From Deinococcales bacterium (lineage in GTDB: Bacteria; Deinococcota; Deinococci; Deinococcales; JAAFIG01), in contig JAAFIG010000002.1 of assembly GCA_013298595.1 (NCBI GenBank), positions 1-64,000 of the forward strand: 64,000 nucleotides of DNA. Reading direction: 5' to 3'. Made by a program: the position numbers and the translations under genes. Below are positions 32,146-60,479 of this stretch, one piece after another; position 1 is the first letter of the stretch, and the number at the start of each line of letters is the position of its first letter. The notes under the pieces are model-generated. The model searched no databases. It saw only the letters and a list, made by a program, of their open reading frames with translations, and had not been told where the DNA came from.

Positions 32146-32179
32146 AGATTACCTTGGGTCGAGTAACGTCCATGTAACG
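32146..32179 (-). promoter_or_regulatory. CGTTAC direct-repeat promoter reading toward the beta-barrel gene
   Basis: Minus strand: CGTTAC (32179-32174), 5 nt, CGTTAC (32168-32163), 11 nt, TAATCT (32151-32146). Exact match to the common architecture. Its transcript would begin near 32139 and include the structured element. Confidence 0.65.
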
Positions 32180-32286
32180 TTTCGGCGGCTGTTTATGAAA
32201 GCTTTGCACCCCAATTTTTTACCTTGTTTTAACTCGAGTTTTAAGTTGTGTGGATTCAACTTGTGCTGCACGGCTTAGATTCTTCG

Positions 32287-32320
32287 CGTTACACTAACGT
32301 TACTGGGGGTAGCGCAACAT
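32287..32320 (+). promoter_or_regulatory. CGTTAC direct-repeat promoter of the LuxR-type gene, predicted leaderless
   Basis: CGTTAC at 32287, CGTTAC at 32298, 11 nt, then CAACAT at 32315-32320. The ATG at 32327 falls where transcription should begin, so the mRNA is probably leaderless; no ribosome site is seen. Confidence 0.65.
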
Positions 32321-32326
32321 GATTGC

Positions 32327-32893
32327 ATGACAGAGTTCAGACAATCAGAACAGCCACGTAACTACTTACTGCATGTAGTGCCAACAGTTCAATCTCAGAG
32401 TATAGCAATGACGTTTCGAGAATGTAACGCTGGTGAGGCATGGTATCAACTGAAGCAACAAACAACAGCCATTCGTCGTGGCACTGTCGTTATTACGGCT
32501 AACCCATGCCCTGAGTACGCACTGGATTTACTCGAGTTAGGTGTTTGTGCGGTTTTACAAATTGGTATTTCAGAACAAGCCGAAGCAACAGCTTTAGAAT
32601 TTGCTAAACGAGGAGCGCTGTATAGCTCCCCTCAGCATTTCCCTTCTTGTATGAGCAAAAAAGAACGAGAAGTTTTGCAATATGTCATTCGTGGCATGAG
32701 CAACCACCAAATTGCTCGGCAATTGCGTAAATCCATGCCAACGGTACGAAATCATTTGAATCAGATGCTAAACATGCTTGGTTTACAAAACCGCACACAA
32801 CTTGCCATGTATTACTTAGGGCATTGGCAATTTCTAGGACGATCTATCAGTAATTTTCAACAAACAGATTCAGTGTTAGCTCGAGTGGATTAA
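32327..32893 (+). CDS. LuxR-type helix-turn-helix regulator with degenerate receiver-like N-terminus
   Basis: A 188-residue regulator. Residues 105-175 are a GerE/LuxR-type HTH (SKKEREVLQYVIRGMSNHQIARQL...TVRNHLNQMLNMLGLQNRTQL). The N-terminal part resembles a shortened receiver (ALDLLELGVCAVLQIG, like the end of response regulators) but lacks the acidic pocket and phospho-acceptor Asp, so it is probably not controlled by phosphorylation. The ATG coincides with the predicted transcription start, hence leaderless. It is divergent from the promoter of the beta-barrel gene and followed after 33 bp by the HemF-like gene. Confidence 0.82.
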   Translation: MTEFRQSEQPRNYLLHVVPTVQSQSIAMTFRECNAGEAWYQLKQQTTAIRRGTVVITANPCPEYALDLLELGVCAVLQIGISEQAEATALEFAKRGALYSSPQHFPSCMSKKEREVLQYVIRGMSNHQIARQLRKSMPTVRNHLNQMLNMLGLQNRTQLAMYYLGHWQFLGRSISNFQQTDSVLARVD

Positions 32894-32926
32894 GCCCAAG
32901 ATTAACTGGTTTTTACGGGAGTTACT

Positions 32927-33613
32927 ATGAAAGAAGTTAATGATTATTTTTTGCAGTTACAACAAGAAATCTCGAGTTTATTACAACAAATGGATGGGCA
33001 TACATTTACCACTACTAATTGGGATTACTTCGCTGGTGGCGGAGGACAAACTCGGGTTTTACGGGACGGCTTTATTTTTCGAGATGTCACAGTTAATGCT
33101 CGAAGTATTACCGGTAAAATTCCTGCAACAACAACGCAGGTACTCCCTTTTTCGCAGAATAAATTTTACTCCTCGGGTATTGATGTGTTGGTGAAACCAA
33201 TAGATGTTCTTGCTCCGATGATTTACTGTCATTTTCATTACGTGGAATTACACAATCGCTTTGGTGATATCCAAGATGCTTGGTTCACAGCTTGTATTGC
33301 ATTAAATGCCACCGAACCAATGCCCGAAGCAAGTGCTTGTATTTATCGGTTTCTCGAGTCTGCTTTGAACGTACTAGATGCCTCAGTAAAGCAAATGCCA
33401 CAACCCGCCAGTGCAATGTTTTTTTTGGGTGGTTTGAATGTCGAATTGCGTCGAGATTTTGCCAAGAATTTTTCGTGCATTAAAGCACTTGGTCAGATTA
33501 CAACTGAAGTTTATGTCCCTATTTTAGAAGATTATTTGGATTCAACCCAAGCGCATAAACGCGTTGTATTGGAATCTCAGCGCCAAGCAAAACTCGAGGT
33601 GCTAGAAGTGTAA
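32927..33613 (+). CDS. HemF-like protein, short form
   Basis: A 228-residue cytoplasmic protein resembling oxygen-dependent coproporphyrinogen III oxidase. GGGGQTRVLRDGFIFRDVTVN near 38-58 matches the family's glycine-rich and substrate-binding stretch, and a valine-rich segment with a C-terminal VYVPILEDYL follows. It is shorter than usual (about 300 residues) and I do not see the conserved GGGADLTP-type segment, so it may be a divergent paralogue rather than the housekeeping haem enzyme. A GGGAG site precedes the ATG. The window also holds ccmAB and cytochrome genes, consistent with haem metabolism. Confidence 0.5.
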   Translation: MKEVNDYFLQLQQEISSLLQQMDGHTFTTTNWDYFAGGGGQTRVLRDGFIFRDVTVNARSITGKIPATTTQVLPFSQNKFYSSGIDVLVKPIDVLAPMIYCHFHYVELHNRFGDIQDAWFTACIALNATEPMPEASACIYRFLESALNVLDASVKQMPQPASAMFFLGGLNVELRRDFAKNFSCIKALGQITTEVYVPILEDYLDSTQAHKRVVLESQRQAKLEVLEV

Positions 33614-33644
33614 TTTTGATTGGATGAGTGAACGGTTTTTGAAA

Positions 33645-33678
33645 TGTAACAGCAACGTTACTAGGTCTCGAGTACGGT
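33645..33678 (+). promoter_or_regulatory. CGTTAC-type direct-repeat promoter of lipoprotein 1
   Basis: TGTAAC at 33645, CGTTAC at 33656, 11 nt containing CTCGAG, then TACGGT at 33673-33678. GGAGG and the lipoprotein ATG follow within 30 bp. Confidence 0.72.
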
Positions 33679-33702
33679 AGCCGAGTGACAACGGAGGTAC
33701 TT

Positions 33703-34992
33703 ATGAAATTAGGAAAATATTTGGTGCTGGTCGGTTTGAGTTTAATCGTGGCGTGTGGGAATCCACCAACAACCGTGACTTTAACCTCGAGTGAATTAAA
33801 CCCAGTATTTGGCTCGAGTGTGACATTCACAGCAACAGCAACACCCGCGAGTAAAATTGTGAAACTCGAGTTGCTGGAAGGTACAACCATTCAAAAAACC
33901 GTGGAAAACACAGCCAACCTCGAGCAAAACGTTTTGATGGATGTTGCTGGTAAGCGTTCTTTTAAGGCTCGAGTGACCGATTCGGCTGGGGTTGTGGCAA
34001 GTAGTGCTGTGGTTGAAGTAGAGACTAAAATTCCGCCAGCGCCAGTGGTCACGCTGAGTGCAACACCAAACCCTGTTGTGATTGGAAGCTCGAGTAAACT
34101 GACCGCTTCCGTGGTTTCTGGTAGAGGTGTGAGTAAAGTAGAATTTTTTGATGGCATAACTTTGTTGGGGTCAGATTCAAGCACGCCATTTACAATTGTT
34201 GTTGATGATTTTTCGTTGGCTGGTTCTCGAGATTTCAGAGCGGTAGCCACGGATAATAATGGTTTGAAAGGTGAAGGTTTAGTTACAGTTACTGTTGTAG
34301 ATCGTATTCCAACAAGTTTTAAGTTTGAATCCGATGATTTGGTATGTTCTGGAGGTTTTCAATTTTGTACTTTATTATCACCAGATGCCGCAAAAATAAC
34401 AGCAGAGTACGAATTGGGTACAGTTTCAAAGCGAACAAATTGGATCATCTTAAAAGATGATGGTATAACGCCTGCACCAACCGATGGGAGTTTTGGAACA
34501 ATAACCGCTATTGCAGGTGATCCCGATGGTTTACTCTCTTCTCGAGTGCAGTACATACCTTCAAATTTTACTGATTTTAATCAAAGGTTTATAATTTTCA
34601 TTCAAGCTACCAGCGTGCAAGACCCTGGAGAATTCCGATTTTTTCGACTCATTGTTTCAAAAAAAGGAACTGTAGAGCGAATCGAATTAGCAGCTTCTCA
34701 AAACAGCACAATAAACGTGGGTGTAACAACAAATATCGGTTTTAATAGGTTCGGGGTAGTTGGGAATAGCTATAATTTAGTAGAAATAAAACTTTCAGAT
34801 TTGAATAATATCGGAAAACTCGAGTGCGAACAAGGTTCTCCTTGTAGGTTGACATCCGATAGCATTATTGGTTTTCAGTTTAAGTTTACAGGGCTTCAAC
34901 CTGGCAATGTCACTTTACTTGCGACCAGCCTGGATGTTAAACCAGATGGCAGTCACCCAACGGATACACTCAAACTGACCGTTAATCCTTAA
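33703..34992 (+). CDS. Ig-like modular lipoprotein 1
   Basis: A predicted 429-residue lipoprotein: signal peptide MKLGKYLVLVGLSLIV with lipobox IVAC. Two Ig-like beta-sandwich modules follow (about 24-110, with SSELNP and VKLELLEG; about 115-205, with VSKVEFFDG and FRAVATDNNG). A C-terminal region of about 210 residues, containing PAPTDGSFGT, SVQDP and LDVKPDGSHPTD, is shared with the copy at 41255. The start at 33703 is set by GGAGG. It is the first member of a paralogous group with near-identical promoters and 5' ends. The function is unknown; a surface adhesin or envelope role is inferred. Confidence 0.8.
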   Translation: MKLGKYLVLVGLSLIVACGNPPTTVTLTSSELNPVFGSSVTFTATATPASKIVKLELLEGTTIQKTVENTANLEQNVLMDVAGKRSFKARVTDSAGVVASSAVVEVETKIPPAPVVTLSATPNPVVIGSSSKLTASVVSGRGVSKVEFFDGITLLGSDSSTPFTIVVDDFSLAGSRDFRAVATDNNGLKGEGLVTVTVVDRIPTSFKFESDDLVCSGGFQFCTLLSPDAAKITAEYELGTVSKRTNWIILKDDGITPAPTDGSFGTITAIAGDPDGLLSSRVQYIPSNFTDFNQRFIIFIQATSVQDPGEFRFFRLIVSKKGTVERIELAASQNSTINVGVTTNIGFNRFGVVGNSYNLVEIKLSDLNNIGKLECEQGSPCRLTSDSIIGFQFKFTGLQPGNVTLLATSLDVKPDGSHPTDTLKLTVNP

Positions 34993-35005
34993 TCACTATC
35001 TTTCT

Positions 35006-35048
35006 CCCTCGAGCTTTCAATCTCGAGGGGTTCTTCGTTTTGGTTTTT
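35006..35048 (+). terminator. CTCGAG-stem terminator after lipoprotein 1
   Basis: CCCTCGAG (35006-35013) and CTCGAGGG (35022-35029) form a hairpin, followed by a T-rich stretch. Confidence 0.7.
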
Positions 35049-35103
35049 CAAAAATGCTTTTCCTGACAAGTAAATCTCGAGTATAAGAACAACCCGCTCG
35101 AAA

Positions 35104-35137
35104 TATAACAGCAACGTTACTGGGTCTCGAGTACGGT
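35104..35137 (+). promoter_or_regulatory. CGTTAC-type direct-repeat promoter of lipoprotein 2
   Basis: TATAAC at 35104, CGTTAC at 35115, 11 nt containing CTCGAG, TACGGT at 35132-35137. Probably drives the three-gene run 35161-39778, since no terminator separates them. Confidence 0.72.
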
Positions 35138-35160
35138 AACCAAGCTATTTGGAGGTACTT

Positions 35161-36534
35161 ATGAAAATACTAAGTTATTTGCTGCTACTCGGTCTGAGTT
35201 TTATGGTGGCTTGTGCCAATCCACCTGTGCCAGATACAACTTTACCAACAGTGGTTTTGAGTATTAATCCTGTTGCACCTGTTGCGGGTGGGAGTATTAT
35301 TCTGAAAGCAGTTGCACTTGATAATGTGGGTGTTGTTCAGGTTAAATTTTTTCTGGGCAGCACCAGTTTAGGCGTGGATTTCTCGAGTCCTTATGAACTA
35401 ATTGTGCCTGCCAATCTTGTCTCGAGTGGCGATCAAGAATTTAAGGCAGTGGCTGCGGATGCGGCTGGGAATGTGCAAGAAACAAAACTTGTTGTCGCGG
35501 TGGCGGTTGCCGATGCTACACCGCCAACGCTTACATTGGGTATTGATAAACCAATTCTTTTTGTTGGTAATACTGCGTTGTTAACCGCAGACGCAACCGA
35601 CAATGTTGGTGTTAAACAAGTTCAATTTTTTATCAACGAAACCAGTTTGGGCATTGATACCTCAGCCCCGTTTGAACAAACTGTGGCTGCCACAAACATT
35701 GTGGAGGGTTTTGCGACCTTTAAGGCGATTGCCACCGATGCCATTGGTCTCTCGAGCGAAACGCGGCTTGGCGTAGTTGTAAATTTGGTGGATACAACAC
35801 CACCAATTGTTGGTTTACGCACCAGCAGCACTGCGCCGCTTGTTGGTCAGGCTTTTAAGTTGTTAGCCGATGCTGAAGATGATGTTGCCATGCGACAAGT
35901 CGAATTTTTGAATGGCGATACCAGTTTGGGTGTGGATACCACAGCCCCATTTGAACAAGAAATTACGGCGGTTCAAGCCACCGTTGGTGTAAAGGCATTT
36001 AAGGCTGTTGCCACGGATGCCAATGGCAACACAGATGTGAGTGCCTTAAATGTTGAAGTAGTTGTCCCAAATATCAGTTTTACAGTCAAGTTGAAACAAA
36101 TCACGATTGCCAACAGAAGCCCAGATGAATTCGATCAAACGTTGCAAATCGTGGGGAGTTTTAAGGCGCAACTTCAATTGACAACGGGTGGTGTTCAAGA
36201 TGAAAAAGTGACCCTCAGTATTCCCAGTGTCTTGCAACCGATTATTCTTCGGGCTGGTTTGAACACTTTTGATAACCCTCAAGTGCTCCAAGGAACGAAT
36301 TTACCGAACAGCAAAATCGTAATGCTTGGCGAGGTATTTGAAAAAGATTCAAATACCTTACTGCATAAGTTCAGTCAGGTCATTGGCAGCCCAGCTATAC
36401 CGTTAAGTGCTGTGGTCAACGCCACGGCTCAAAATCCAGCCGTATTGCAATTTCAACTCAATACACAAGTTGGAACATCGCAAGCAGAGAACGATTCGAT
36501 TTTGGTTTTTTTTGAGATTTTTAGAAATCCGTAA
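35161..36534 (+). CDS. Ig-like modular lipoprotein 2 (three repeats)
   Basis: A predicted 457-residue lipoprotein with lipobox MVAC. Three Ig-like modules of about 95 residues follow, each with the pattern D-VGV-QV-FF-TSLG-D then a FKAVATDA-like strand (near 30-120, 125-215 and 220-305). The last 150 residues form a separate domain starting VPNISFTVKLKQI, which also ends the lipoprotein at 61968. TTGGAGG precedes the ATG. It is followed after 32 bp by an RCC1-type lipoprotein and is probably co-transcribed with it. Confidence 0.8.
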   Translation: MKILSYLLLLGLSFMVACANPPVPDTTLPTVVLSINPVAPVAGGSIILKAVALDNVGVVQVKFFLGSTSLGVDFSSPYELIVPANLVSSGDQEFKAVAADAAGNVQETKLVVAVAVADATPPTLTLGIDKPILFVGNTALLTADATDNVGVKQVQFFINETSLGIDTSAPFEQTVAATNIVEGFATFKAIATDAIGLSSETRLGVVVNLVDTTPPIVGLRTSSTAPLVGQAFKLLADAEDDVAMRQVEFLNGDTSLGVDTTAPFEQEITAVQATVGVKAFKAVATDANGNTDVSALNVEVVVPNISFTVKLKQITIANRSPDEFDQTLQIVGSFKAQLQLTTGGVQDEKVTLSIPSVLQPIILRAGLNTFDNPQVLQGTNLPNSKIVMLGEVFEKDSNTLLHKFSQVIGSPAIPLSAVVNATAQNPAVLQFQLNTQVGTSQAENDSILVFFEIFRNP

Positions 36535-36566
36535 CTCGAGTGATACCCATTTCTTTTGGAGGTTGT

Positions 36567-39873: not shown

Positions 39874-39907
39874 CGTTACATGGACGTTACTGGGTGTGTT
39901 GCAAACT
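39874..39907 (+). promoter_or_regulatory. CGTTAC direct-repeat promoter upstream of the lipoprotein at 40119
   Basis: CGTTAC at 39874, CGTTAC at 39885, 11 nt, CAAACT at 39902-39907. The leader to the ATG at 40119 is about 200 nt. It holds a GGAGG-preceded micro-ORF (TTG, 40031-40045) and a 26-codon ORF (40042-40122) overlapping the lipoprotein start; neither is certain. Nothing else is seen in this gap. Confidence 0.6.
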
Positions 39908-41196: not shown

Positions 41197-41230
41197 CGTT
41201 ACACGGACGTTACCGCACCTCAAGTACGGT
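41197..41230 (+). promoter_or_regulatory. CGTTAC direct-repeat promoter of lipoprotein 3
   Basis: CGTTAC at 41197 and 41208, 11 nt, TACGGT at 41225-41230; GGAGG and the ATG follow. Confidence 0.72.
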
Positions 41231-42648: not shown

Positions 42649-42682
42649 CGTTACACGGACGTTACCGCACCTCAAGTACGGT
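42649..42682 (+). promoter_or_regulatory. CGTTAC direct-repeat promoter of lipoprotein 4
   Basis: CGTTAC at 42649 and 42660, 11 nt, TACGGT at 42677-42682. Nearly identical to the site at 41197 over more than 60 bp. Confidence 0.72.
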
Positions 42683-47158: not shown

Positions 47159-47225
47159 TAAGGTGTTAGTCCAAAGCGCCAATGCTATTGCATATGGTTT
47201 GGCAATTACGTTGGCTTGGGGCTGC

Positions 47226-47867
47226 ATGAGTTTGGTTTTGAATTTGCAGGGTGTTGTTCATCGGTTTCAATCTTCGTATGTGTTACGTGGCGCTCATTTG
47301 GTATTATCGGCACAACAAATTCTGGCTTTGTATGGTGCTAATGGCGCAGGGAAAACAACTTTATTAAAAATCATTGCTTCCAGTGTTGTTGCCACTCGAG
47401 GTTCGGGTACTATTCTGGGTTTTGATTTGCAGCAGCGTTTTCAGATTCGGCAACGGGTGCAATTGGTTTCGCATTCCTTAGGGTTTTACCCCGATTTAAC
47501 GGGTTTGGAAAACTTAGAATTTGCCCTGACCATGCACGGTAAAACCGCCGATATTGGGGCAGCACTAAACCGAGTGGGCTTGCATACTCAAAACCGAGTT
47601 CGCGGCTATTCTAGCGGCATGAGGAAGCGTTTGGCATTGGCAAAAATGCTGTTGCTTCAACCAGACCTGATTTTATTAGACGAACCGTTTGCGGCTTTAG
47701 ACCCAAGCGGTAAGAACTTGGTCGAACAACTGATTTTTGAACAACAAAACCGAGGGGCAACCATTATTGTGGCTTCGCACGAACCCGAACGCACCAACCA
47801 AATAGCCACCAGTATTGCCACCCTCGAGCATGGGTTGTTGCATATTTCGGAAATCCCAAAACCATGA
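47226..47867 (+). CDS. ccmA: Haem exporter ATP-binding protein CcmA
   Basis: A 213-residue ABC ATPase that powers the CcmAB complex used in cytochrome c maturation. Walker A GANGAGKTT is near 37-45, the signature YSSGMRKRL near 130, and Walker B LILLDEPFAALDP follows. The ATG at 47226 gives a normal N-terminus; the longer in-frame start at 47163 would add 21 residues unlike the family. It overlaps ccmB by 4 bp. The other ccm genes are not in the window. Haem attachment fits the CXXCH lipoprotein encoded at 49583. Confidence 0.85.
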   Translation: MSLVLNLQGVVHRFQSSYVLRGAHLVLSAQQILALYGANGAGKTTLLKIIASSVVATRGSGTILGFDLQQRFQIRQRVQLVSHSLGFYPDLTGLENLEFALTMHGKTADIGAALNRVGLHTQNRVRGYSSGMRKRLALAKMLLLQPDLILLDEPFAALDPSGKNLVEQLIFEQQNRGATIIVASHEPERTNQIATSIATLEHGLLHISEIPKP

Positions 47868-48541
47868 GGCAAGCTTGGCGAATTATTTTGACCATTGCCT
47901 TAAAAGATTGGAAGGTCGAAGGTCGTGCTCGAGACATTCTGGCAGCTACTTTATTTTTTGCTGTGCTGGTTGTCACTATTCTGGCATTTGCTTTTGGTCC
48001 TGAAACCACTAAATTGCGTCAAGCCAGCCCTGGAATCCTTTGGGTCGCCATTGCTTTTTCCAGTATTTTAGCGGCTTCTCGGGCTTTTGCTTCCGAATCC
48101 GAAGATGGCGCACTCGAGACATTACTGTTGTACCCTGTGTCTCACGAATGTATTTATTTAGGAAAGTTACTAGGTAATTTAGGTTTAATGCTGGTCTTGG
48201 CGTTGGTGATAGCCCCGTTTACCTTGCTGTTGTACGGCATTAGTATTTCTGGGCGAGAATTGCTTTTTGCAATCACCGTTTTTTTTGGTGTTCTGGGTTT
48301 TAGTATTGTCTCGAGTTTTCAGAGTGCTTTAACCATGAATTTACGATCTCGAGAAAGCCTGATGCCGGTGCTGATTTTTCCAATTGTTGTTCCTGTAATT
48401 ATTGCTTGTGTCAAAGCAACTGTAGGTTTAATCACCCTTGATCAATCCATAGATGTCTCGGGTTGGATTCGGTTATTAATTGGTTTTGATTTGGTTTACG
48501 TTGTGATTTGTACCTTGGTTTTTCCGTATGCTGTCGAATAA
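47864..48541 (+). CDS. ccmB: Haem exporter membrane protein CcmB
   Basis: A 225-residue membrane protein with six hydrophobic segments. The N-terminus (ALKDWKVEGRARDILAATLFF) and SESEDGALETLLLYPV match CcmB, the permease partner of CcmA. The start overlaps the ccmA stop as ATGA. With CcmA it functions at the inner membrane in the cytochrome c maturation pathway. The length is typical for the family. Confidence 0.9.
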   Translation: MRQAWRIILTIALKDWKVEGRARDILAATLFFAVLVVTILAFAFGPETTKLRQASPGILWVAIAFSSILAASRAFASESEDGALETLLLYPVSHECIYLGKLLGNLGLMLVLALVIAPFTLLLYGISISGRELLFAITVFFGVLGFSIVSSFQSALTMNLRSRESLMPVLIFPIVVPVIIACVKATVGLITLDQSIDVSGWIRLLIGFDLVYVVICTLVFPYAVE

Positions 48542-49461: not shown

Positions 49462-49495
49462 ATGGTAACAATGCCTCGGTAACGTTAGGATAACA
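49462..49495 (-). promoter_or_regulatory. CGTTAC-type direct-repeat promoter of the membrane protein, predicted leaderless
   Basis: Minus strand: TGTTAT (49495-49490), CGTTAC (49484-49479), 11 nt, TACCAT (49467-49462). Transcription should start at about 49455, one base before the ATG at 49454. Confidence 0.65.
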
Positions 49496-49582: not shown

Positions 49583-51952
49583 TTAATTAAAAGTTGTTGG
49601 GCATTTATCGGCTTGGGCTGGTAAGGTAATTTCGGGGGTTTTAGCATCTATCGAGAATAAGAAATTCTCGAGGTCAGTAGCATCTGTGCCACTCAGGGCA
49701 AAATCTACTTTACCTGCGGTTAAGTGCTTTGCCCACCTAGGGTCGGTCAGTAAATCTTTAAGGGTTTTGGCTTGACCATGATGCAAGTATGGTGCTCCAA
49801 CACTTAAACCATACAAACTTGGCACGTTGTACCCACTAAAATTACCTTGGGCAACAGTTTCATCTTGTTTGGTCTCGAGGTCTGGATTATCGGCTGAGTT
49901 TAACGCACCAAAAGTATCTACGTTGCGAAGCACACAAGCCATTTGTGCTGGTTTTATGGCTTCACCACCAGTCTGTTCGGTTTGCACCATTTTGGTTTGA
50001 TTTCCAAAACCATCATTGGTTATATCGAGCGCTGCGAGGGCATTATTATTATCCACACTCGGTGTGAAGAACCGTCTCGAGATAGTCCAACCTGCTCCTC
50101 CGTGGCAACTTTGGCAATTGCCTGCTTGGAAAACTGCCAGCCCTTTAGAGACCGATGCGGCACTCGAGAAGCGTTTAGCACTTGGCGGACGGAAGGTTTT
50201 GACCAGTGCTTCGATTGAATCAAAGTCCTTGACAATCGAAGGTGTTTCATCCTGAATGACTTTTACTGGAATACCAAGATTGACTTGTAAGCCGTTTTTA
50301 TCATTTCCTCGATTAGTAGGATTCAAATCAATTTGTGATTGAAACGCTAAATTAATGATATTACCAGTAACAACCGCTCCTAAACCATTAGAGACGGTGC
50401 GGGTGTTGCGTTCAAAATCGTGGATTTCGTCAAAAATACCAGTCCAATTGAGAATACGTTGCTTCTGAGTACCTGCTCCATGACTGAACGTTCCATCCAT
50501 GCTGGTACTTTGGCGCGGACCGGATGTGAAACTCCAAGTCATATTGTCGGACAAACCATCTGGGTGGCAACTGCTGCAACTGCTCCAAGTCTCTTTGCTC
50601 CACCTGGCTCGAGCTGTAAAGTAATCGCGCCTGCCCTTATTGATGTCGGCATCTGCGCCAGCGGCTGGTGCTGTGGTTGCAGCAATTTTAATGGTTGGTA
50701 CTTGCTTGTTCAAATCCACCACAGTGGTGGTACGACTAACCCAGCAATTAACGTACATATTGGTGTTGACACTTAAATCTACGGGTACAACTAAACCAAT
50801 TGGGTTTTGACAACCAATTTTTGCAGTTGCACTGCCTGGCTCGAGGGCTTCTAGCAATTCGATTTGCTTGTTGGTTACATCGTTCTTACCCAACGTTAAA
50901 GTATTCGTGGCAGTATCCAAGATAGCGCGTTGAACCGCATCTGCACCACGTCCAAGCAAGTACATGGTGTTTTCACCAATTACGTCTATATCAAATAAAT
51001 CTGCCATGAAATTCTTGGTTTCAGGAGTAACAACCTGACTTTTAATAGCAGAGGCAACACTAATTGTCGCAATTTTCTTAGCAGTGCTGATAGTACCAAT
51101 CAACACAAACGGAAAAACATTTTGATTAAACGAAGGCACACCATCAGGCGCAGAAGCCACAGCCGTAGCAAAGAATTTATCGCCACTAATGGCAACACTG
51201 GCTAATTGATTCGGCGATGCTAATAAAGTCGGAGAGAAATCCCCTGGGTTAATTGCATCAAAAACCACTTCGCCAGCATCGGATAAACCCTCGAGATTAA
51301 GGATATTCACCACACCACTACGGCTATTATCGGTGGCTTCTTTACCTGTAATCCGACCATAGAATTGCGTTACCACCACTTTTTCATCCGAATCGAGTTG
51401 ATCAAAATTGTTGGTAATAGCCACAGCTCGAGGATTAGGGATATTGGCAAAATTGGTTAAAGTCATGTTGGTGGTGTTAATAACCGAAACACGCCCTTCG
51501 GCAAATTCTGCCACCACCAATTTCTCACCTCGAGGTGACAAAGCAATACCTGTTGGTTCAGAACCCACTAAAACCGTGCCCGAAACCGTAGGATTATCGG
51601 TATCTATACCCGATATTTTTGTGATACTACCATCGGCTTTGTTTGCTACAAAAGCTGTTTTGTTATCTGGATGAATCACCACCGAAACAGGTTCATTACC
51701 CACTTTTAATTCCGAACGCTTGGCATTATTGAGTAATTTAATAACACTGATTGAATCGGTTTCGGGATTGACTTGCACCACGTACTTGTTATCTCCAGAC
51801 ATAGCAATAGCACCAGATTTAGAAGCTCTGGTCAAGATAGCAGCCTCGGGTGGAGTCACAGGGTTATTACAACTAACTAAACCTGTAAATAAAGTAAAAC
51901 AACCAACACCACGTAGAATCCATTGCTTACGGCGATCATCTATTTGTCTCAT
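49583..51952 (-). CDS. Beta-propeller/di-haem cytochrome c lipoprotein
   Basis: A predicted 789-residue lipoprotein (lipobox LVSC). Residues 45-420 carry YVTN/YNCE-type propeller repeats (for example SVVIHPDNKTAFVANKADG near 84-102). A C-terminal cytochrome region has two haem-binding CXXCH motifs, CSSCH near 459 and CQSCH near 614, and a GAPYLHHGQ stretch near 715-723 typical of MauG/cytochrome c peroxidase relatives. It may act as an electron-transfer or peroxidase-like protein at the outer face of the inner membrane. The nearby ccmAB genes fit its need for covalent haem. AAGGAAAGG precedes the ATG. Confidence 0.85.
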   Translation of the reverse strand: MRQIDDRRKQWILRGVGCFTLFTGLVSCNNPVTPPEAAILTRASKSGAIAMSGDNKYVVQVNPETDSISVIKLLNNAKRSELKVGNEPVSVVIHPDNKTAFVANKADGSITKISGIDTDNPTVSGTVLVGSEPTGIALSPRGEKLVVAEFAEGRVSVINTTNMTLTNFANIPNPRAVAITNNFDQLDSDEKVVVTQFYGRITGKEATDNSRSGVVNILNLEGLSDAGEVVFDAINPGDFSPTLLASPNQLASVAISGDKFFATAVASAPDGVPSFNQNVFPFVLIGTISTAKKIATISVASAIKSQVVTPETKNFMADLFDIDVIGENTMYLLGRGADAVQRAILDTATNTLTLGKNDVTNKQIELLEALEPGSATAKIGCQNPIGLVVPVDLSVNTNMYVNCWVSRTTTVVDLNKQVPTIKIAATTAPAAGADADINKGRRDYFTARARWSKETWSSCSSCHPDGLSDNMTWSFTSGPRQSTSMDGTFSHGAGTQKQRILNWTGIFDEIHDFERNTRTVSNGLGAVVTGNIINLAFQSQIDLNPTNRGNDKNGLQVNLGIPVKVIQDETPSIVKDFDSIEALVKTFRPPSAKRFSSAASVSKGLAVFQAGNCQSCHGGAGWTISRRFFTPSVDNNNALAALDITNDGFGNQTKMVQTEQTGGEAIKPAQMACVLRNVDTFGALNSADNPDLETKQDETVAQGNFSGYNVPSLYGLSVGAPYLHHGQAKTLKDLLTDPRWAKHLTAGKVDFALSGTDATDLENFLFSIDAKTPEITLPAQADKCPTTFN

Positions 51953-52100: not shown

Positions 52101-52134
52101 AATATGACTTACCCCCAGTAACGTGGCTGTTATA
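52101..52134 (-). promoter_or_regulatory. CGTTAC-type direct-repeat promoter of the di-haem lipoprotein
   Basis: Minus strand: TATAAC (52134-52129), CGTTAC (52123-52118), 11 nt, CATATT (52106-52101). Leader to the ATG at 51952 is about 140 nt. Confidence 0.65.
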
Positions 52135-52171: not shown

Positions 52172-52205
52172 TGTTATGCTCGCGTTACTGATACTCGAGT
52201 AGCTT
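52172..52205 (+). promoter_or_regulatory. CGTTAC-type direct-repeat promoter without an obvious gene
   Basis: TGTTAT at 52172, CGTTAC at 52183, 11 nt containing CTCGAG, TAGCTT at 52200-52205. A 52-codon frame starts at 52228 but has no ribosome site. The transcript may be non-coding. Confidence 0.5.
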
Positions 52206-52399: not shown

Positions 52400-52433
52400 A
52401 ATAACAGCCACGTTACTGGGCTTAGGGCAGAAT
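52400..52433 (+). promoter_or_regulatory. CGTTAC-type direct-repeat promoter of a candidate small RNA
   Basis: AATAAC at 52400, CGTTAC at 52411, 11 nt, CAGAAT at 52428-52433. A hairpin with GC stem and T-tract ends a candidate transcript 100 nt later. Confidence 0.55.
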
Positions 52434-52540: not shown

Positions 52541-52566
52541 TAGGCTCAAGGATTTTGTTCTTGAAA

Positions 52567-52600
52567 TATAACAGCAACGTTAAGGCATTTGAGTTGACAA
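52567..52600 (+). promoter_or_regulatory. CGTTAC-type direct-repeat promoter of lipoprotein 5 (degenerate)
   Basis: TATAAC at 52567, CGTTAA at 52578, 11 nt, TGACAA at 52595-52600. The spacing is kept, but the second repeat and -10 are weaker than in the paralogues; GGAGG follows. Confidence 0.5.
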
Positions 52601-52611: not shown

Positions 52612-54432
52612 ATGAAATTACTAAAATATTTGGTGCTGGTCAGTTTAAGTTTAATTGTGGCGTGTGGTGAATCACCTAAACCACCTGAACTATTAACTGT
52701 TACTTTAACCTCGAGTGAATTAAACCCAGCTTTGAACTCGAGTGTGACGTTCACAGCAACAGCAACGCCCACAGGTAAAATTGTGAAACTCGAGTTGCTG
52801 GAAGGAACAACTGTTAAAAAAATTGTGAATAATGCAGCGAACCTCGAGCAAAACGTTTTGATGGATGTTGCTGGTAAGCGTTCTTTTACCGCTCGAGTGA
52901 CCGATTCGGCTGGAGTGGTGACGAGTAGTGCAGTGGTTGAAGTTGTAACTGCGCCTGCGCCTATTGCTGTTACACTGACCCCAACTTTTTTAGAAACAAC
53001 TGCTTTTTCTCGGCTGCAATTCCGTGTCACTGCTGCCCCAGCCAATAAAGTCAAAAAACTCGAGTTGCTAGAGGGAGCAACAATTCTTAAGGCTGTAGAT
53101 AACGCTGCAACTTTCGATTTTGCAATTACTTTGGGCGGTGTAGGTAAGCAGTCTTTTAAAGCGAGAGCAACTACTACTGATGACGTGGCGGTAAACAGTG
53201 CTGTTGTTGAAATTAATGTTACACAACCAATCAATGCTTTGGTGCTAAAAGGAGGAATAGGTCGCTCGGGTTTTATGGCTACTGGTGATCTATCTGAAAT
53301 TTCTGCAACTGTTACATTTAACAATCCAGCGTCTGTGATTCAGGAAATCGAGTTTTTTGACGAAACAGGTTCACTAGGTAAGGATATAAGTCAGCCAATA
53401 GCACTTGATTTCCCACTGACTTTTACCACCATTGGTGTTCGCAATTTTCGAGCAGTTGCCAAAGATCAATTCGGTACAACAGTTGAAGGTTCTGTTCAAA
53501 TAAAAGTCGTTGAGGCTTTTGGTTTTTTACGTGCAAATCCACAAGAAATAGGAGTGGGTGACCCAACTACACTGGTGTTAGAACAAAGCCTTGGGAATGG
53601 CAGAATTACCAAAGTAGAATTCTTTGAAGGTACAACCCTTTTAGGTACGGATTCCAGAGAACCATTTGAACTGGTGGTTGATAATTTCACAACAGTTGGT
53701 TCTCGAGATTTTAAGGCTGTTGTAACCGATTCAAGTGGTCTAAAAAGCGAAAGTTCTACTTCTGTAAAAACATTACCCTTTGTACTTAATGTCTCAAATG
53801 ACCGTTTTAACGATTTACTTTCTCCAGATACAGCCATTTTTACAGCAAAATACACAGGTAACACTTTTGGATTGGATTTAGCAACGAACTTTAGCATTCT
53901 TAAATCCGATGGCAGTCCAGCACCAACCGATGGGAGTTTGGGGAAATTAGAAATTATTCCCCAAGGAGCTATCAATGAAATTAGGAAAATGCGTTATGTG
54001 CCACCAACCATTGCTACAGATGATGTAGATTTAAGGATCAAAATTAAAGCAACATCCGTACTTGATCCGAGTCAAAGCATCGAAACTGATTTACGAATTC
54101 GGAAAAAGGGAACGGTTTTTGGCATTCAAGTTTTTACTGATCCTGTAGCACCTCTAAGAGTTAATCGACCTGCAATAGTCGGTGCTAACCTATTAGGAAC
54201 TGAGGGAAATGTAACTAACAAAATCCTTTTTACACTTTCAGATTTTACTCGCCTTGGAACAGTTGCGTGTGCACCACCTGAACAGTGTGCCATCGATATT
54301 GAATCTGATACCATTATCGCTAGAAAATTCCTTTTCACACCAACGAAAACGGGTACTCTTCAATTCAGTGGACAAAGTGTAATGAATGCGGGGACTGGTA
54401 ATCCTTCTAACCCCATCCAAATCCTGCCGTAG
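52612..54432 (+). CDS. Ig-like modular lipoprotein 5 (long form)
   Basis: A predicted 606-residue lipoprotein (lipobox IVAC), the longest of the family. It has four Ig-like modules: the shared first module, a second copy of the same type (VTLTPTFLETTAFS..., about 120-210), then two FEGTTLLG/FKAVVTDS-type modules. The shared C-terminal region with PAPTDGSLGK, DPSQS and RKKGTVFG follows. The extra modules look like duplication of the first. GGAGG precedes the ATG at 52612; the longer frame from 52555 spans the promoter and is not used. Confidence 0.8.
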   Translation: MKLLKYLVLVSLSLIVACGESPKPPELLTVTLTSSELNPALNSSVTFTATATPTGKIVKLELLEGTTVKKIVNNAANLEQNVLMDVAGKRSFTARVTDSAGVVTSSAVVEVVTAPAPIAVTLTPTFLETTAFSRLQFRVTAAPANKVKKLELLEGATILKAVDNAATFDFAITLGGVGKQSFKARATTTDDVAVNSAVVEINVTQPINALVLKGGIGRSGFMATGDLSEISATVTFNNPASVIQEIEFFDETGSLGKDISQPIALDFPLTFTTIGVRNFRAVAKDQFGTTVEGSVQIKVVEAFGFLRANPQEIGVGDPTTLVLEQSLGNGRITKVEFFEGTTLLGTDSREPFELVVDNFTTVGSRDFKAVVTDSSGLKSESSTSVKTLPFVLNVSNDRFNDLLSPDTAIFTAKYTGNTFGLDLATNFSILKSDGSPAPTDGSLGKLEIIPQGAINEIRKMRYVPPTIATDDVDLRIKIKATSVLDPSQSIETDLRIRKKGTVFGIQVFTDPVAPLRVNRPAIVGANLLGTEGNVTNKILFTLSDFTRLGTVACAPPEQCAIDIESDTIIARKFLFTPTKTGTLQFSGQSVMNAGTGNPSNPIQILP

Positions 54433-54492: not shown

Positions 54493-54498
54493 TTGAAA

Positions 54499-54532
54499 CG
54501 TTACAAGGTCGTTATCACAGCGCAAGTAGCGT
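54499..54532 (+). promoter_or_regulatory. CGTTAC-type direct-repeat promoter of lipoprotein 6
   Basis: CGTTAC at 54499, CGTTAT at 54510, 11 nt, TAGCGT at 54527-54532; GAGG and the ATG follow. Confidence 0.65.
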
Positions 54533-54556
54533 TTGGTTGTGCTGATAGAGGTTCTT

Positions 54557-55561: not shown

Positions 55562-55596
55562 CCGCAATTTTGAGAACACTATTTTGCTTGTTCTAA

Positions 55597-55627: not shown

Positions 55628-55697
55628 TAAATTTGGAGTTTTAAAAAATACTTTCTCTGACTGTTAAATCTCGAGTATGAGAATACTTTTCTCGAAA

Positions 55698-55731
55698 TGT
55701 AACAGCAACGTTACTGGGTCTCGAGTACGGT
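55698..55731 (+). promoter_or_regulatory. CGTTAC-type direct-repeat promoter of lipoprotein 7
   Basis: TGTAAC at 55698, CGTTAC at 55709, 11 nt containing CTCGAG, TACGGT at 55726-55731. Nearly identical to the site at 33645. Confidence 0.72.
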
Positions 55732-55754
55732 AGCCGAGTGACAACGGAGGTCTT

Positions 55755-57287
55755 ATGAAATTAGGAAAATATTTTGTGCTGGTCGGATTAAGTTTAATCG
55801 TGGCGTGTGGAAAACCACCCGAATCACTAACCGTTACTTTAACCTCGAGTGAGTTAAACCCAGCTTTTAACTCGAGTGTGACGTTCACAGCAACAGCAAC
55901 ACCCGCGAGTAAAATTGTGAAACTCGAGTTGCTAGAAGGGACAACTGTTAAAAAAACCGTGAATAATGCAGCGAACCTCGAGCAAAATATTGTCATGAAT
56001 ATAGCTGGTAAACGCTCTTTTACGGCTCGAGTGACCGATTCGGCTGGGGTGGTGGCAAGCAGTGCAGTAGTTGAAGTGAATACCAAAGCACCACCAGTGG
56101 TCACGCTAACCGCATTTCCCAATACAATAGCGGTTAACACCACAAGCGTTTTAATCGCTTCGGTTGTTTCAAATAATGGGATTAAAGAAGTTGAATTTTT
56201 TGAAGGAACAAAATCTTTGGGTAAAGATTTAGTATCACCATTTGAAATGCCTGTCAATGATTTTGTGAGTTCTGGTCTTCGGGAATTTAAGGCTGTTGCA
56301 ACAGATAATTTCGGGCTGATAGGTCAAGCAGGTGCTTCTGTTACCGTTGTGAGTAGCAGTTTACCTTTTGTTACCCTAAAAGCATCTCTAAAAGAGGTTT
56401 TTGTTGATGGTTTAAGTACCTTAACCGCTTCGGTAGTGGCAAGCAGTGGTGTTAGTGAAGTCGAATTTTTTGAAGGAACAAAATCTTTAGGCAAGGACTC
56501 GAGTGTTCCGTTTGAATTGGTAGTTACTGATTTTACAAGTGTCGGTTCTCGAGTTTTTAAGGCAGTCGCAACGGATAACAATGGACTTAAAGGCGAGGCT
56601 TTAACTTCGATTGCTGTTTTAGCGAGTAAGCCAACCAGTTTCAAGTTGTTTGCAGATAAATTTTTGGTGCGTTCTGGGACCGTTACTTTAAATCTTTCAC
56701 CTGATGTACTTGAATTAGAAGTCAAATACGAAGTTGGTACTGTTTCAAAACAAACAACATGGACATTGACTGTACTTGATAGCAATATTGATGGAGATTT
56801 TGGAACAATTGTTGCTGTGCCTGGTGACCCCAATGGGTTGCGTTCTTCTAAAGTACGATATGTGCCTCCTGCATTTCCAGATTTTGATGGTTTTATTAAT
56901 ATTTTGATAGAAGCAAAAAGTGTGCAAGACCCTAACCAAACCGCTCGTGCTTTGTTCCCAGTCCGTAAAAAAGGAACACAAACAGGAATTATCTTGGTTA
57001 CATCTCCAGCTAATGCTTCACCAAAGCTTAATGTACCAATCTCAATTAACATACGAACAGTTGATCAGGTTGGAATTGTTAAAAACCAAGGGATTTGGAA
57101 CTTCCCAGATTCGAGTTCTGGGACTCTCTCGTGCGATCCTTCCGTGGATTGTTTCTTCACAGAACAGGGTGAAATTGTAAGTCCACGGGTTCTGTTCACG
57201 CCACTAAAACTAGGTGCAGTCAGCATAACCGCAAACAGTTTACACGATGGAGCATTTGCCAAACTTGATTTAACCGTTGTTCCGTAA
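55755..57287 (+). CDS. Ig-like modular lipoprotein 7
   Basis: A predicted 510-residue lipoprotein (lipobox IVAC) with three Ig-like modules: the shared first unit, a unit with GIKEVEFFEGTKSLG, and a third unit almost identical to the second module of the gene at 42707. The C-terminal region is shared with 42707 and with the fragment at 40845 (KKGTQTGI, PDSSSGT, RVLFTPLKLGAVSI). It is the clearest example of module shuffling in the cluster. It ends 42 bp from the convergent STAND-BTAD gene, with a terminator hairpin between. Confidence 0.82.
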   Translation: MKLGKYFVLVGLSLIVACGKPPESLTVTLTSSELNPAFNSSVTFTATATPASKIVKLELLEGTTVKKTVNNAANLEQNIVMNIAGKRSFTARVTDSAGVVASSAVVEVNTKAPPVVTLTAFPNTIAVNTTSVLIASVVSNNGIKEVEFFEGTKSLGKDLVSPFEMPVNDFVSSGLREFKAVATDNFGLIGQAGASVTVVSSSLPFVTLKASLKEVFVDGLSTLTASVVASSGVSEVEFFEGTKSLGKDSSVPFELVVTDFTSVGSRVFKAVATDNNGLKGEALTSIAVLASKPTSFKLFADKFLVRSGTVTLNLSPDVLELEVKYEVGTVSKQTTWTLTVLDSNIDGDFGTIVAVPGDPNGLRSSKVRYVPPAFPDFDGFINILIEAKSVQDPNQTARALFPVRKKGTQTGIILVTSPANASPKLNVPISINIRTVDQVGIVKNQGIWNFPDSSSGTLSCDPSVDCFFTEQGEIVSPRVLFTPLKLGAVSITANSLHDGAFAKLDLTVVP

Positions 57288-57299
57288 AACATCCTTTAG

Positions 57300-57325
57300 C
57301 CCCTCGAGCCTTCAATCTCGAGGGG
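57300..57325. terminator. CTCGAG-stem terminator between convergent genes
   Basis: CCCCTCGAG and CTCGAGGGG, perfect 9-bp stem around CCTTCAAT. Palindromic and placed between converging genes, so it can serve both directions. Confidence 0.6.
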
Positions 57326-57328
57326 GAG

Positions 57329-60300
57329 TTAATCAAGAAAATCTTGCCATGTGGCTGGTAATTCAACACCAATCTCGGCTTGTTTAACCTTACCAAGGTT
57401 GTAAATGTGCAACATGGTTGTGACCTGATTTAAGTCCTGAAAAATACGTAAACCCAAACGCAGAAACTCGAGGTTATACGCATCCATTTCCAGTAAAATA
57501 CGGGTTAATTTAGGGGTGTGTTCGTTACGATTTTTTTGGAATTCCAAAATATCTTGGTGTAATGTTTGAATTAATTTCTCTCGGATACTCGAGGGGTGTT
57601 CGTTACCTAAATCGTGAATGTAAGCTCCTCGCCATAATTCTGGGTTGTGGTGCTTTAAGTAATGTTCGACATCGGTTTGAATGTCTTTGAGCACATACCC
57701 ATGTTCGGTGCGCAAAATAATGTCGTTACCAAATAATCCACGAACGCGGTAGATCAGTTGTTTTAAGGCGGCATTGGCTTGGTTCTCTTCGATGCTTGGG
57801 TAGAGTACACGGATTAATTCGTGGTTTTGTAAAGCAGGGTGTTGTTCTATTTTGACTTCGAGCAGTAACACCAGCAGTTCTTTGGCTTTGCGTCCGCGTT
57901 CACCTAAAGCTTTGCCTTGCCAGCGCATTTCGCCTAGCACTTCTAAAATTGGTTTGTAATTGGGTTGGGCTGCACCAAAGTAACGGTGGTGTAATTGTAC
58001 TAACCAGCCTTGTTCGGTTTTTTCGAGGTGTTGCCGAAGTTTTTCGGTATTGCTGGTGTTGTTAAAACGCGTGTGTTCAAGTGCAACTAAATCTGGGCTG
58101 AATTCAAAGTACATTGGGTTTTTCATGGCTAAAGCTGTTTGGAATAGAATTTCGGCTCGAGATTTTTGTCCTAATTTTTCGCAAGCCAAAGCATGAATTA
58201 ATTCGCTTCGACTATTATTTTTGCCCCTGATTTGGATGAGTTGGACTCGTAACTCGAGGGCTTTGCTGGGTAAGCCAAGGGTTGCTTCGATAAAGGCTAA
58301 GGTGTGCATCGCGCCGCTTAACAATTGGTTGTCTTGGCTTTGCGTTGCGCGTTGTATGGCTTGTTCTGCGTGGTACAAAGCGGTGCTGTAATCTTGGTGT
58401 TGCCAGTGTAGCAAGGCGGTGAATCGCTCGAGGTAACAGCAGTAATGGATTTGTTGGTTGCGTTCGAGTACCAGTCTGGCTTCGCGTAGCAAGTGTTCGG
58501 CTTGGGTTGGGTTGCCGTGTTGCAAAGTGTAATACCCCAGCTCGGATTGGCGTTGGGCGTACAAAACAGCCTGACCTGATTGCGCTAGTAATTGTAGGCT
58601 CTGTTGAATATCGCTAATGGCTGCTTTAGGGTTTCCTAAGGCGCTGTGGGCGTAAGCCCTGAGCTGATGCGCTCCTTCGAGCAAATCTGGGTATGCGGTG
58701 GTAGTAGCAATAAAAGCTGTGCATTGGTCAATGGCTGTTTGCCATTGGTGTTGGGCATGAACAATAAATAAAGCGGCGTATTGCAATTGGGCTAATTCGT
58801 ACTGGCTTAAAAACCCGAGGGCTAAACCTTGGTTAATCACGTTTTGGGCTTGTTCAAAAGCAGCCTCATGCACACTGGCTCGAGCTACGGCTCTGGCTAC
58901 AGTGGCAGTGGGTATTTGTTGTTGCATGGTGGTTTGCCAAAAAATCAGTAATTCGTTGTGTTGTAATCCTCGGTGCAGCACAATGATCTGGCTTTCATGC
59001 CAGATTTCGGTTTTGGGCTGCATGGCAAGTAAGGCTTTTGCTTCGATGTTTTTACCAAGCCGTGCCAGAATTTCGATGTGCAATTGCACAATTTCTGTTC
59101 TATCGGGTGCGTATAAAGTGGCTTGTTGGATCATACTCAGGGCTTCGGATAATTGATATGGTTGTACCCATTTGGCAGCAATAAATAATAAATCGGCTGG
59201 TGATTGCTTTAACAAGGCAACTTCGGCTTTGGCTTGGGCTGTGCTGACCAATTGCATTTGTAACCGAGCCGCACTTAACCAATCTTGTAATTCAACAGCT
59301 TTTACCACGGCTTCTTCGAGATGAGCTAAATGCGTGGCAGCATCTAAAGCAGCCCATTGTAAAAGGTCAGCAGCGGCTATTGGGTCTTGGTTTTTGAGGA
59401 TTGCAAATATTTGCTGAGCTAAACTGGTGCGCTCGGTCGTATCCGCTATTTCCAGAATCACTTCACGGAATAATGGATGGGCAAATTGGGCTTGTCTGAG
59501 AATACCTAAACGCTCAAGTTGCTGAGTGACACTGGTCATTTTGTGTTTACTTAACCCACTGCTTGTTTGCCAAATATCATTGCGTATTTGCGAACCAAGT
59601 AATGCTGCGCTGCATAAAGCTTGGCACATGACAGGGTCTCGCATGGCGGGTTCTAAGGCTTGTTCGATCAGCACTTCGACTCGAGTTGGCAATTTTGCAT
59701 CATTGGGTTCTCGCCAATGCCAAGTGTGTGTGTCGTTCCAGAGATGCCCAAAACGAATTAGCCATTTAAAAAATTCGAGTGTAAATAATGGATTACCAGC
59801 CGTTCGGGCATAAATCCATTGACTCGCAGCACTCGGTACTAACCAGCCCATTTCTTTCTCGAGCAAGGCTTGGGTCGAGGTTTGGTTTAAGCGTGGCACC
59901 GCAATGGTGTTTATTGCAAAATCAGGTGGTACTCGGCTGCTGATGACCACACCAATACCTTGGTTTTTTTGTATTTCTGTGCTTAGTCTTTGCCAAAAAA
60001 TTTGTTGCGCTGCACTGGCTTCATGAATATCTTCGATCACAAAAAGACAGGGTGATAACTCGAGTAAAACAGCGATTAAACTCTGAATCAGAGCTTCTTC
60101 GTTGTTTTGCTTGGTTATTAGCACCGACCAAGCGGGTTGTAGCACTTGCGGTAGTACCTCGAGTAATTGTGTGGCTTTGTTTTTTGTGGCATGAACCCGA
60201 AAGCAACGGTATGGCAATAACCGAATTGTTTCGGTTATTAAAAATGATTTCCCTACACCTGCTTCGCCCCACAGCCAAACCACTTGACTTGGATCGGTTT

Positions 60301-60334
60301 TAGTTAAACCTTGTAACCCTTGGATCAAATTCAT
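57329..60334 (-). CDS. STAND ATPase-TPR regulator with C-terminal winged helix and BTAD, second copy
   Basis: A 1001-residue paralogue of the gene at 44096 with the same domain order. Walker A GEAGVGKS is near 23-30 and Walker B FVIEDIHEA near 98-106. Sensor-like ATPase and helical regions are followed by TPR-type repeats (about 330-780), a winged helix (about 795-885) and BTAD (about 890-1000). The two copies bracket the lipoprotein, ccm and di-haem genes from 47 to 57 kb. No ribosome site is seen before the ATG. It is divergent from the zinc-ribbon gene. It may control the same CGTTAC sites in response to a different ligand. Confidence 0.87.
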   Translation of the reverse strand: MNLIQGLQGLTKTDPSQVVWLWGEAGVGKSFLITETIRLLPYRCFRVHATKNKATQLLEVLPQVLQPAWSVLITKQNNEEALIQSLIAVLLELSPCLFVIEDIHEASAAQQIFWQRLSTEIQKNQGIGVVISSRVPPDFAINTIAVPRLNQTSTQALLEKEMGWLVPSAASQWIYARTAGNPLFTLEFFKWLIRFGHLWNDTHTWHWREPNDAKLPTRVEVLIEQALEPAMRDPVMCQALCSAALLGSQIRNDIWQTSSGLSKHKMTSVTQQLERLGILRQAQFAHPLFREVILEIADTTERTSLAQQIFAILKNQDPIAAADLLQWAALDAATHLAHLEEAVVKAVELQDWLSAARLQMQLVSTAQAKAEVALLKQSPADLLFIAAKWVQPYQLSEALSMIQQATLYAPDRTEIVQLHIEILARLGKNIEAKALLAMQPKTEIWHESQIIVLHRGLQHNELLIFWQTTMQQQIPTATVARAVARASVHEAAFEQAQNVINQGLALGFLSQYELAQLQYAALFIVHAQHQWQTAIDQCTAFIATTTAYPDLLEGAHQLRAYAHSALGNPKAAISDIQQSLQLLAQSGQAVLYAQRQSELGYYTLQHGNPTQAEHLLREARLVLERNQQIHYCCYLERFTALLHWQHQDYSTALYHAEQAIQRATQSQDNQLLSGAMHTLAFIEATLGLPSKALELRVQLIQIRGKNNSRSELIHALACEKLGQKSRAEILFQTALAMKNPMYFEFSPDLVALEHTRFNNTSNTEKLRQHLEKTEQGWLVQLHHRYFGAAQPNYKPILEVLGEMRWQGKALGERGRKAKELLVLLLEVKIEQHPALQNHELIRVLYPSIEENQANAALKQLIYRVRGLFGNDIILRTEHGYVLKDIQTDVEHYLKHHNPELWRGAYIHDLGNEHPSSIREKLIQTLHQDILEFQKNRNEHTPKLTRILLEMDAYNLEFLRLGLRIFQDLNQVTTMLHIYNLGKVKQAEIGVELPATWQDFLD

Positions 60335-60445
60335 TGGTTTAAGTCTACTGTTTGAAGCTAATAATTAGGTGATTTCTCATCTTAGCTATTTAGTCGCGGT
60401 GCAAAACCCTTACAAAAAATGTGTCTATAACAAGTCCAATCAAAA

Positions 60446-60479
60446 TATAACAGCAACGTTACTGGCACTCGTTTAGGCT
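60446..60479 (+). promoter_or_regulatory. CGTTAC-type direct-repeat promoter of the zinc-ribbon gene
   Basis: TATAAC at 60446, CGTTAC at 60457, 11 nt, TAGGCT at 60474-60479. AAGGAG and a GTG start follow. Confidence 0.68.

Follow-up and report, generated by a model that had tools for sequence, protein, structure and literature searches.

The first 64,000 nucleotides of contig JAAFIG010000002.1 from a Deinococcales bacterium, with a draft genome of 4.58 Mb in 68 contigs, form the window analyzed here (C12:1-64000, contigs being denoted by C and a number). From its middle onwards, and continuing past its right end, lies a cluster of genes for exported proteins and regulators, among which are encoded AAA-TPR proteins ending in a winged-helix domain of the SARP type. 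About 25 promoters packed into the 54 kb of this cluster, and one elsewhere in the genome, carry a common double DNA tag at the position occupied in Streptomyces by SARP activators of antibiotic genes. Their targets encode Ig-like and RCC1 lipoproteins, di-haem enzymes, a GMC oxidoreductase, a zinc-ribbon protein, a LuxR-type regulator and an OmpR-type response regulator, and the sequence evidence suggests that a SARP relative probably switches on this set of surface lipoproteins and haem enzymes.

That the promoter family is real is certain. The core pattern CGTTAC-N11-YANNNT has 14 matches in the window, against 0.84 expected from shuffling, and 13 of the 14 fall inside positions 32146-60479, the range marked out by the initial annotation of this DNA. 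The genome-wide search which that annotation had proposed as a check, run with TWAY-N5-CGTTAY-N11-YANNNT, returned 29 matches, 25 of them within C12:32146-85924 (54 kb, or 1.2% of the genome; P ~1e-44 for the clustering, many of the lipoprotein promoters being duplicates), and 16 sites are left once redundant copies are removed. The reversed control pattern gave 5 matches genome-wide. All fifteen sites originally listed, 12 on the plus and 3 on the minus strand, could be recovered, and 14 of them are intact; the family is larger than was described, with 10 further intact sites beyond the window up to C12:85924 and another at C11:76711. The remaining listed site, at 52567-52600, is decayed: it resembles a lipoprotein promoter from which the -10 stretch has been deleted, an intact site lies ~170 nt upstream, and the TGACAA once assigned as its -10 has to be dropped, as no usable -10 is left there. 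The second hexamer had been given as CGTTAC throughout, which is correct for 13 of the 15 sites, with CGTTAT at 54499-54532 and CGTTAA at the decayed site as the departures. The rigid spacing, by contrast with these details, was described correctly, since none of the 25 intact C12 sites departs from the 11-bp period of the repeat or from the 17-nt distance to the -10. A 45-position sequence model built on 26 sites recovers all 26 and adds two decayed copies, one at window position 52561 and one near C12:64183, where the second hexamer reads CGTTAA and the -10 is one base too near. The repeated unit exceeds the hexamer and can be written A-Y-R-T-W-A-Y / A-C-G-T-T-A-C-T-G-G.

The site at C11:76711, the sole convincing match outside the cluster, stands upstream of a di-haem gene of the MauG/cytochrome-c-peroxidase type, and this target matches the di-haem proteins of the cluster, which speaks for a functional regulon. 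Another pattern match, at C3:100538, lies inside the coding region of a BTAD paralog and was taken as chance. The strict pattern was not found in three family-mates, and its strict form among 111 genomes of the phylum was confined to this genome and one match in the 110 relatives. A scan of ~85,000 species genomes, from which the window's own genome records were possibly omitted, gave one exact match, which is unrelated, and the sequence model of the C12 sites (R1) found no match in 443 kb of relatives' DNA. As a separate observation, CTCGAG is very frequent throughout the genome (for example, 448 copies in C12:1-104000 against ~25 expected from length) and also occurs within many of the promoters.

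Leaderless genes provide the anchor for placing the repeats relative to transcription. Across 291 open reading frames of this genome, the TANNNT motif is most frequent at distances of 12 and 13 nt from the start codon it precedes (34 and 14 occurrences versus ~5), the leaderless arrangement published for Deinococcota (PMC12340547). These promoters and the many BTAD proteins both point to that phylum. Three regulon genes are leaderless in this manner, namely the LuxR-type gene (12 nt), the 298-aa gene starting at 49454 (13 nt) and the GMC oxidoreductase gene C12:75702 (12 nt); these distances fix the +1 position and thereby put the repeats at -40..-30 and -29..-19. Counted in this way, T-38, A-36, T-27 and A-25 are invariant in the 16 non-redundant sites. 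The AfsR box of Streptomyces coelicolor likewise pairs an 11-bp repeat at -40..-30 with another at -29..-19, and R92 of AfsR contacts T-38 and T-27 (PMC10936776). The sites have the -10 that is usual in this genome (YANNNT, often TANNNT), and no -35 hexamer is visible at them. As in SARP operators, the box overlaps the -35 region, with its centre near -29.5, above a usable -10; the 3' repeat ends 9 nt before the -10 when measured from the unit's last conserved base, or 8 when the repeat is taken as the heptamer TTACTGG, the distance in SARP operators being 8 bp. Because the AACGTT core is self-palindromic, direct and inverted similarity were compared with non-overlapping arms on the non-redundant sites. 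Similarity was best at an offset of 11, in keeping with the 11-bp (or 22-bp) direct repeats of SARP operators; the best non-overlapping inverted similarity was 0.56 versus 0.61 for the direct repeat, and the invariant columns fit the latter. The position of the site matches a SARP box to the base.

Table 1. Promoter sites, regulator genes and neighboring features (window coordinates unless prefixed; each site is given as first hexamer/second hexamer/-10)
Feature	Position	Strand	Remark
P0006, TPR protein, divergent C-terminal winged-helix/BTAD-like region	29166..31094	-	left of cluster, weak candidate
Site CGTTAC-N5-CGTTAC-N11-TAATCT	32146..32179	-	probably for 155-aa protein 31451-31918, ~230 nt leader
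Site CGTTAC/CGTTAC/CAACAT	32287..32320	+	leaderless start of LuxR-type gene
P0001, LuxR/GerE helix-turn-helix protein, degenerate receiver-like N-terminus, 188 aa	32327..32893	+	regulon member
Short coproporphyrinogen oxidase (HemF)-like protein	32927..33613	+	likely in P0001 operon
Site TGTAAC/CGTTAC/TACGGT	33645..33678	+	for Ig-like lipoprotein 33703-34992
Site TATAAC/CGTTAC/TACGGT	35104..35137	+	for Ig-like (Big_7) lipoprotein 35161-36534
Site CGTTAC/CGTTAC/CAAACT	39874..39907	+	~205 nt ahead of lipoprotein 40119-40835
Site CGTTAC/CGTTAC/TACGGT	41197..41230	+	for Ig-like lipoprotein 41255-42541
Site CGTTAC/CGTTAC/TACGGT	42649..42682	+	for Ig-like lipoprotein 42707-43969
P0002, AAA-TPR protein, C-terminal SARP-type winged helix and BTAD-like helices	44078..47158	+	candidate regulator within cluster
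ABC ATPase and CcmB-like pair	47163..48541	+	adjoins P0002
Site TGTTAT/CGTTAC/TACCAT	49462..49495	-	leaderless start of 298-aa protein 48558-49454
Di-haem lipoprotein, beta-propeller and RoxA/CCP-like cytochrome domain	49583..51952	-	
Site TATAAC/CGTTAC/CATATT	52101..52134	-	for di-haem lipoprotein, ~145 nt leader
Site TGTTAT/CGTTAC/TAGCTT	52172..52205	+	tandem with site 52400..52433
Site AATAAC/CGTTAC/CAGAAT	52400..52433	+	for Ig-like lipoprotein 52612-54432
Decayed site TATAAC/CGTTAA, -10 lost	52567..52600	+	TGACAA site of the initial annotation
Site CGTTAC/CGTTAT/TAGCGT	54499..54532	+	for Ig-like lipoprotein ending 55561
Site TGTAAC/CGTTAC/TACGGT	55698..55731	+	for Ig-like lipoprotein 55755-57287
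P0003, AAA-TPR protein, C-terminal SARP-type domain	57329..60334	-	candidate regulator
Site TATAAC/CGTTAC/TAGGCT	60446..60479	+	for zinc-ribbon protein 60500-61318, then Rieske-domain protein 61373-61840
P0005, OmpR-type response regulator	C12:69296-69988		in lipoprotein operon behind cluster site C12:68894
GMC oxidoreductase	C12:75702		leaderless, start 12 nt from -10
P0004, AAA-TPR protein, C-terminal SARP-type domain	C12:89388-92249		good candidate beyond window

Three proteins of the window had been described as BTAD proteins. Two of them, P0002 and P0003, are good candidates for the regulator together with P0004 beyond the window; the third, P0006, lacks the base-contacting arginine and is a poorer candidate. 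In P0002, P0003 and P0004 the AAA-TPR part comes first and is followed by a C-terminal winged helix with BTAD-like helices. Large SARPs of the AfsR type have the order SARP domain, NOD/AAA, TPR, and the reversed order rules the three out as classical members of that class; judged from their predicted domains, we file them as SARP-domain proteins of a new arrangement. When a profile of 21 family members was compared with the PDB, only AfsR (1e-8) and EmbR matched. P0002 alone found no match in the PDB, and the first six Foldseek matches of its domain model are AfsR and EmbR, at modest confidence. Pfam BTAD matches were obtained for 3 of the 21 family members, with P0002 below threshold, and P0004 alone matches the AfsR NCBIfam model in the region of its C-terminal domain. 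P0002, P0003 and P0004 retain the arginine that corresponds to R92 of AfsR, and in an alignment with six further near-full-length paralogs of the P0002 type from this genome it is replaced in all six. In a tree of the SARP-domain paralogs the C12 proteins sit on long, weakly placed branches, and we claim no common origin for them. When the surroundings of P0002-type paralogs from four genomes were scanned for enriched hexamers, C12 was the only place to give a signal.

Repeats of the same period occur beside BTAD genes elsewhere in this genome. A de novo scan for direct repeats adjoining a -10, scored whatever their sequence, was run over ~1.9 Mb. Families of at least three copies at period 11 were found at three loci, all of them BTAD-gene regions, and families of at least two in 6 of 27 BTAD regions versus 0 of 26 control regions (Fisher P 0.02); none was found in 0.96 Mb of BTAD-free control DNA. 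The only set at another period, period 9 in C12, was taken as coding repeats. On C13 (12936-35419), two BTAD genes directly adjoin five CAGTCACGC-repeat promoters that serve exported proteins, and another site, the sixth, has GTAACGC repeats and diverges from a third BTAD gene. The five TTGTTGCG-repeat promoters of C3, the only five in the genome, fall within 17 kb (C3:46855-64114) around a BTAD gene, and this repeat surfaced only when 11-bp repeats were scored directly. Two AGTTTACGC-repeat promoters are found on C56, at 38507 and 41374, and the families on C8 and C10 are tentative. Like those of C13, the promoters of C3 and C56 precede genes for exported proteins. All these families except that of C3 have T-n-A-C at unit positions 4, 6 and 7, in the same register. 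The C3 repeat lacks the T, and the C3 BTAD protein has an apparent lysine, read by eye, at the AfsR R92 position, which is a single case. Unlike P0002, P0003 and P0004, the BTAD proteins of C13 and C3 have the SARP domain at the N-terminus. An expanded set of SARP-domain proteins, comprising at least 24 Pfam-BTAD places and about ten AAA-TPR proteins with a C-terminal SARP domain, might each control neighboring exported-protein genes through a private 11-bp code at the AfsR position (CGTTAC, CAGTCACGC, AGTTTACGC, GTAACGC, TTGTTGCG and others), a generalization for which we see the chances as evenly balanced.

The SARP-like interpretation offered in the initial annotation agrees with the 11-bp direct repeats, their overlap of the -35 region above an ordinary -10, the missing -35 hexamer, the AfsR/EmbR-like domains predicted for the candidate proteins, and the presence of other BTAD loci with repeats of their own. 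We therefore consider it quite probable that SARP-domain proteins situated in the cluster activate the surface and haem-redox regulon by replacing -35 recognition. We infer from location and sequence that P0002, P0003 and/or P0004 would be the binder. According to this model, the promoters would combine a housekeeping -10 without a -35 with two tandem 11-bp units in its place, and the SARP-domain protein would bind the two units as a pair arranged side by side, head to tail, and, like AfsR, supply the missing -35 contact to RNA polymerase. The exact helical phasing of repeats and -10 in 25 of 25 sites fits an activator that touches the polymerase. The AAA/STAND and TPR parts presumably sense a signal, and the LuxR-type and OmpR-type regulators among the targets suggest a possible second regulatory tier.

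Several observations weigh against this interpretation. When part of the site is read as an inverted repeat, the score comes close to that of the direct repeat. P0002 alone has neither a Pfam BTAD nor a Trans_reg_C match, its domain model is of middling confidence (predicted local distance difference test, pLDDT, 58), and the SARP domain is C-terminal rather than N-terminal as in AfsR. The R92-type arginine is also present in a distant paralog on C6. Furthermore, the promoters of P0002, P0003 and P0004 lack the cluster site, and with the at least 24 Pfam-BTAD places in the genome besides the P0002-type proteins, the regulator could be encoded elsewhere. As for the other repeat families, the comparison of BTAD regions with controls at three or more copies (3 of 27 versus 0 of 26) does not reach significance by itself, and the de novo scan covers ~1.9 Mb of the 4.58-Mb genome.

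Two other regulators of the cluster deserve consideration as the binder, and both are less likely than the SARP-domain proteins. OmpR-family regulators also bind 11-bp direct repeats beside a -10, and P0005, the product of a lipoprotein operon behind a cluster site, might bind the repeats in a PhoB-like fashion and regulate its own synthesis. However, P0005 is a 76% identical copy of the response regulator at C12:233319; the two recognition helices are almost the same, and relatives at 50-58% occur across the order. If P0005 read the motif its sister should too; yet the motif is missing from the sister's operon promoter, from the rest of the genome apart from the C11 site and, but for one match, from relatives. 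On C13, five promoters of this kind adjoin BTAD genes, and none of the genes listed for that locus was recognised as a response regulator. A role for P0005 appears quite improbable. The sister (C12:233319-234011) is itself a conserved response regulator, accompanied by a kinase and located beside ferrochelatase and protoporphyrinogen oxidase genes. P0001, the LuxR-type protein, could instead control the regulon and itself through the site ahead of its own gene: it is genome-specific, with only distant relatives (40% at best), lies at the left edge of the cluster and is leaderless from a perfect site, and within the commoner sites one stretch may be taken for the imperfect palindrome CAGCAACGTTACTG. 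The usual targets of LuxR/NarL proteins are inverted repeats near -42, however, and the direct repeat accounts for the invariant T-38 and A-36, which the palindrome, with arms that vary between sites, does not. Moreover, BTAD genes accompany the regulons of C3 and C13, and no LuxR gene was noticed beside them, so we regard P0001 as an unlikely regulator.

Other explanations dispense with an activator altogether. The repeats cover the region where RNA polymerase would be blocked, as expected of repressor operators, or they could be part of an alternative-sigma promoter; but a repressor would have no -35 hexamer to occlude, the -10 is the genome's ordinary one, none of the cluster proteins scanned was recognised as a sigma factor, and the exact phasing in all 25 sites fits an activator in contact with polymerase, making either role very unlikely. 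Finally, the sites might be mere copies carried along by duplicated lipoprotein genes without any common control, and about half of them do share flanks with duplicated lipoprotein promoters. The 16 non-redundant sites, however, have the same bases and spacing in front of genes that are themselves unrelated and have unrelated flanks (those for the LuxR-type protein, the GMC oxidoreductase, the zinc-ribbon protein, the di-haem proteins and the C11 MauG-type protein), and we give this explanation hardly any credence.

If SARP-domain proteins are indeed the activators, the system has partial counterparts elsewhere. PhoB, acting at the pho box, also uses 11-bp direct repeats in place of a -35, but PhoB is a response regulator, and the local OmpR-type copy, P0005, is an unlikely reader of the motif. 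With AfsR and its afs box the cluster shares the repeat coordinates, the weak or absent -35, the invariant T-38 and T-27, an arginine-bearing SARP winged helix, and the STAND ATPase and TPR parts (PMC10936776). It differs in repeat sequence, in the C-terminal placement of the SARP domain, in that binding is predicted, in its non-actinomycete host, and in its targets, which are surface lipoproteins and haem enzymes rather than antibiotic genes. In Streptomyces natalensis, PimR, a SARP-LAL protein, drives the LuxR-type gene for PimM (PMC5930380), and a SARP-type operator before a LuxR-type gene is found here too, suggesting two tiers, although in our case the operator also serves structural genes. 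A SARP domain protein is already on record in Deinococcus, the response regulator Deide_19260 (COG3947), which is induced after irradiation and whose targets were unknown in that study (PMC3564903); it has a receiver-SARP architecture, unlike the proteins described here, and no operator is known for it.

The surroundings of the regulon have features of their own. A haem theme runs through the region, with the short HemF-like protein, the CcmB-like ABC pair and several di-haem proteins. Just left of the cluster, an open reading frame on the plus strand (window 31174-31299) encodes a small secreted Gly/Thr-rich peptide, MKKVIRLIAAMLLLG...GTGAGTGAGNG. To the right of the regulon, genes for a TnsB-like transposase, TniB, TniQ, Cas6e, Cas8e, Cas7e and Cas5e follow one another at C12:92938-101353, where no Cas3 or adaptation genes were recognised and no CRISPR array was seen in the 3 kb searched; this segment is a candidate type I-E CRISPR-associated transposon.

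Nearly everything known of SARPs concerns their role as switches of antibiotic production in actinomycetes. The promoter geometry of these regulators is now found in a Deinococcus-like genome, together with candidate regulators of reversed domain order and with genes for surface lipoproteins and haem enzymes. The BTAD proteins of the Deinococcus-like group, which are abundant and functionally unassigned, would thus gain a concrete operator. Several loci with differing repeats in one genome also amount to natural variants of how SARP winged helices choose their DNA. If the private-code proposal is true, the varied repeats and the odd TTGTTGCG repeat, paired with a BTAD protein that apparently lacks the T-contacting arginine, would provide a collection from which the SARP recognition code could be worked out.

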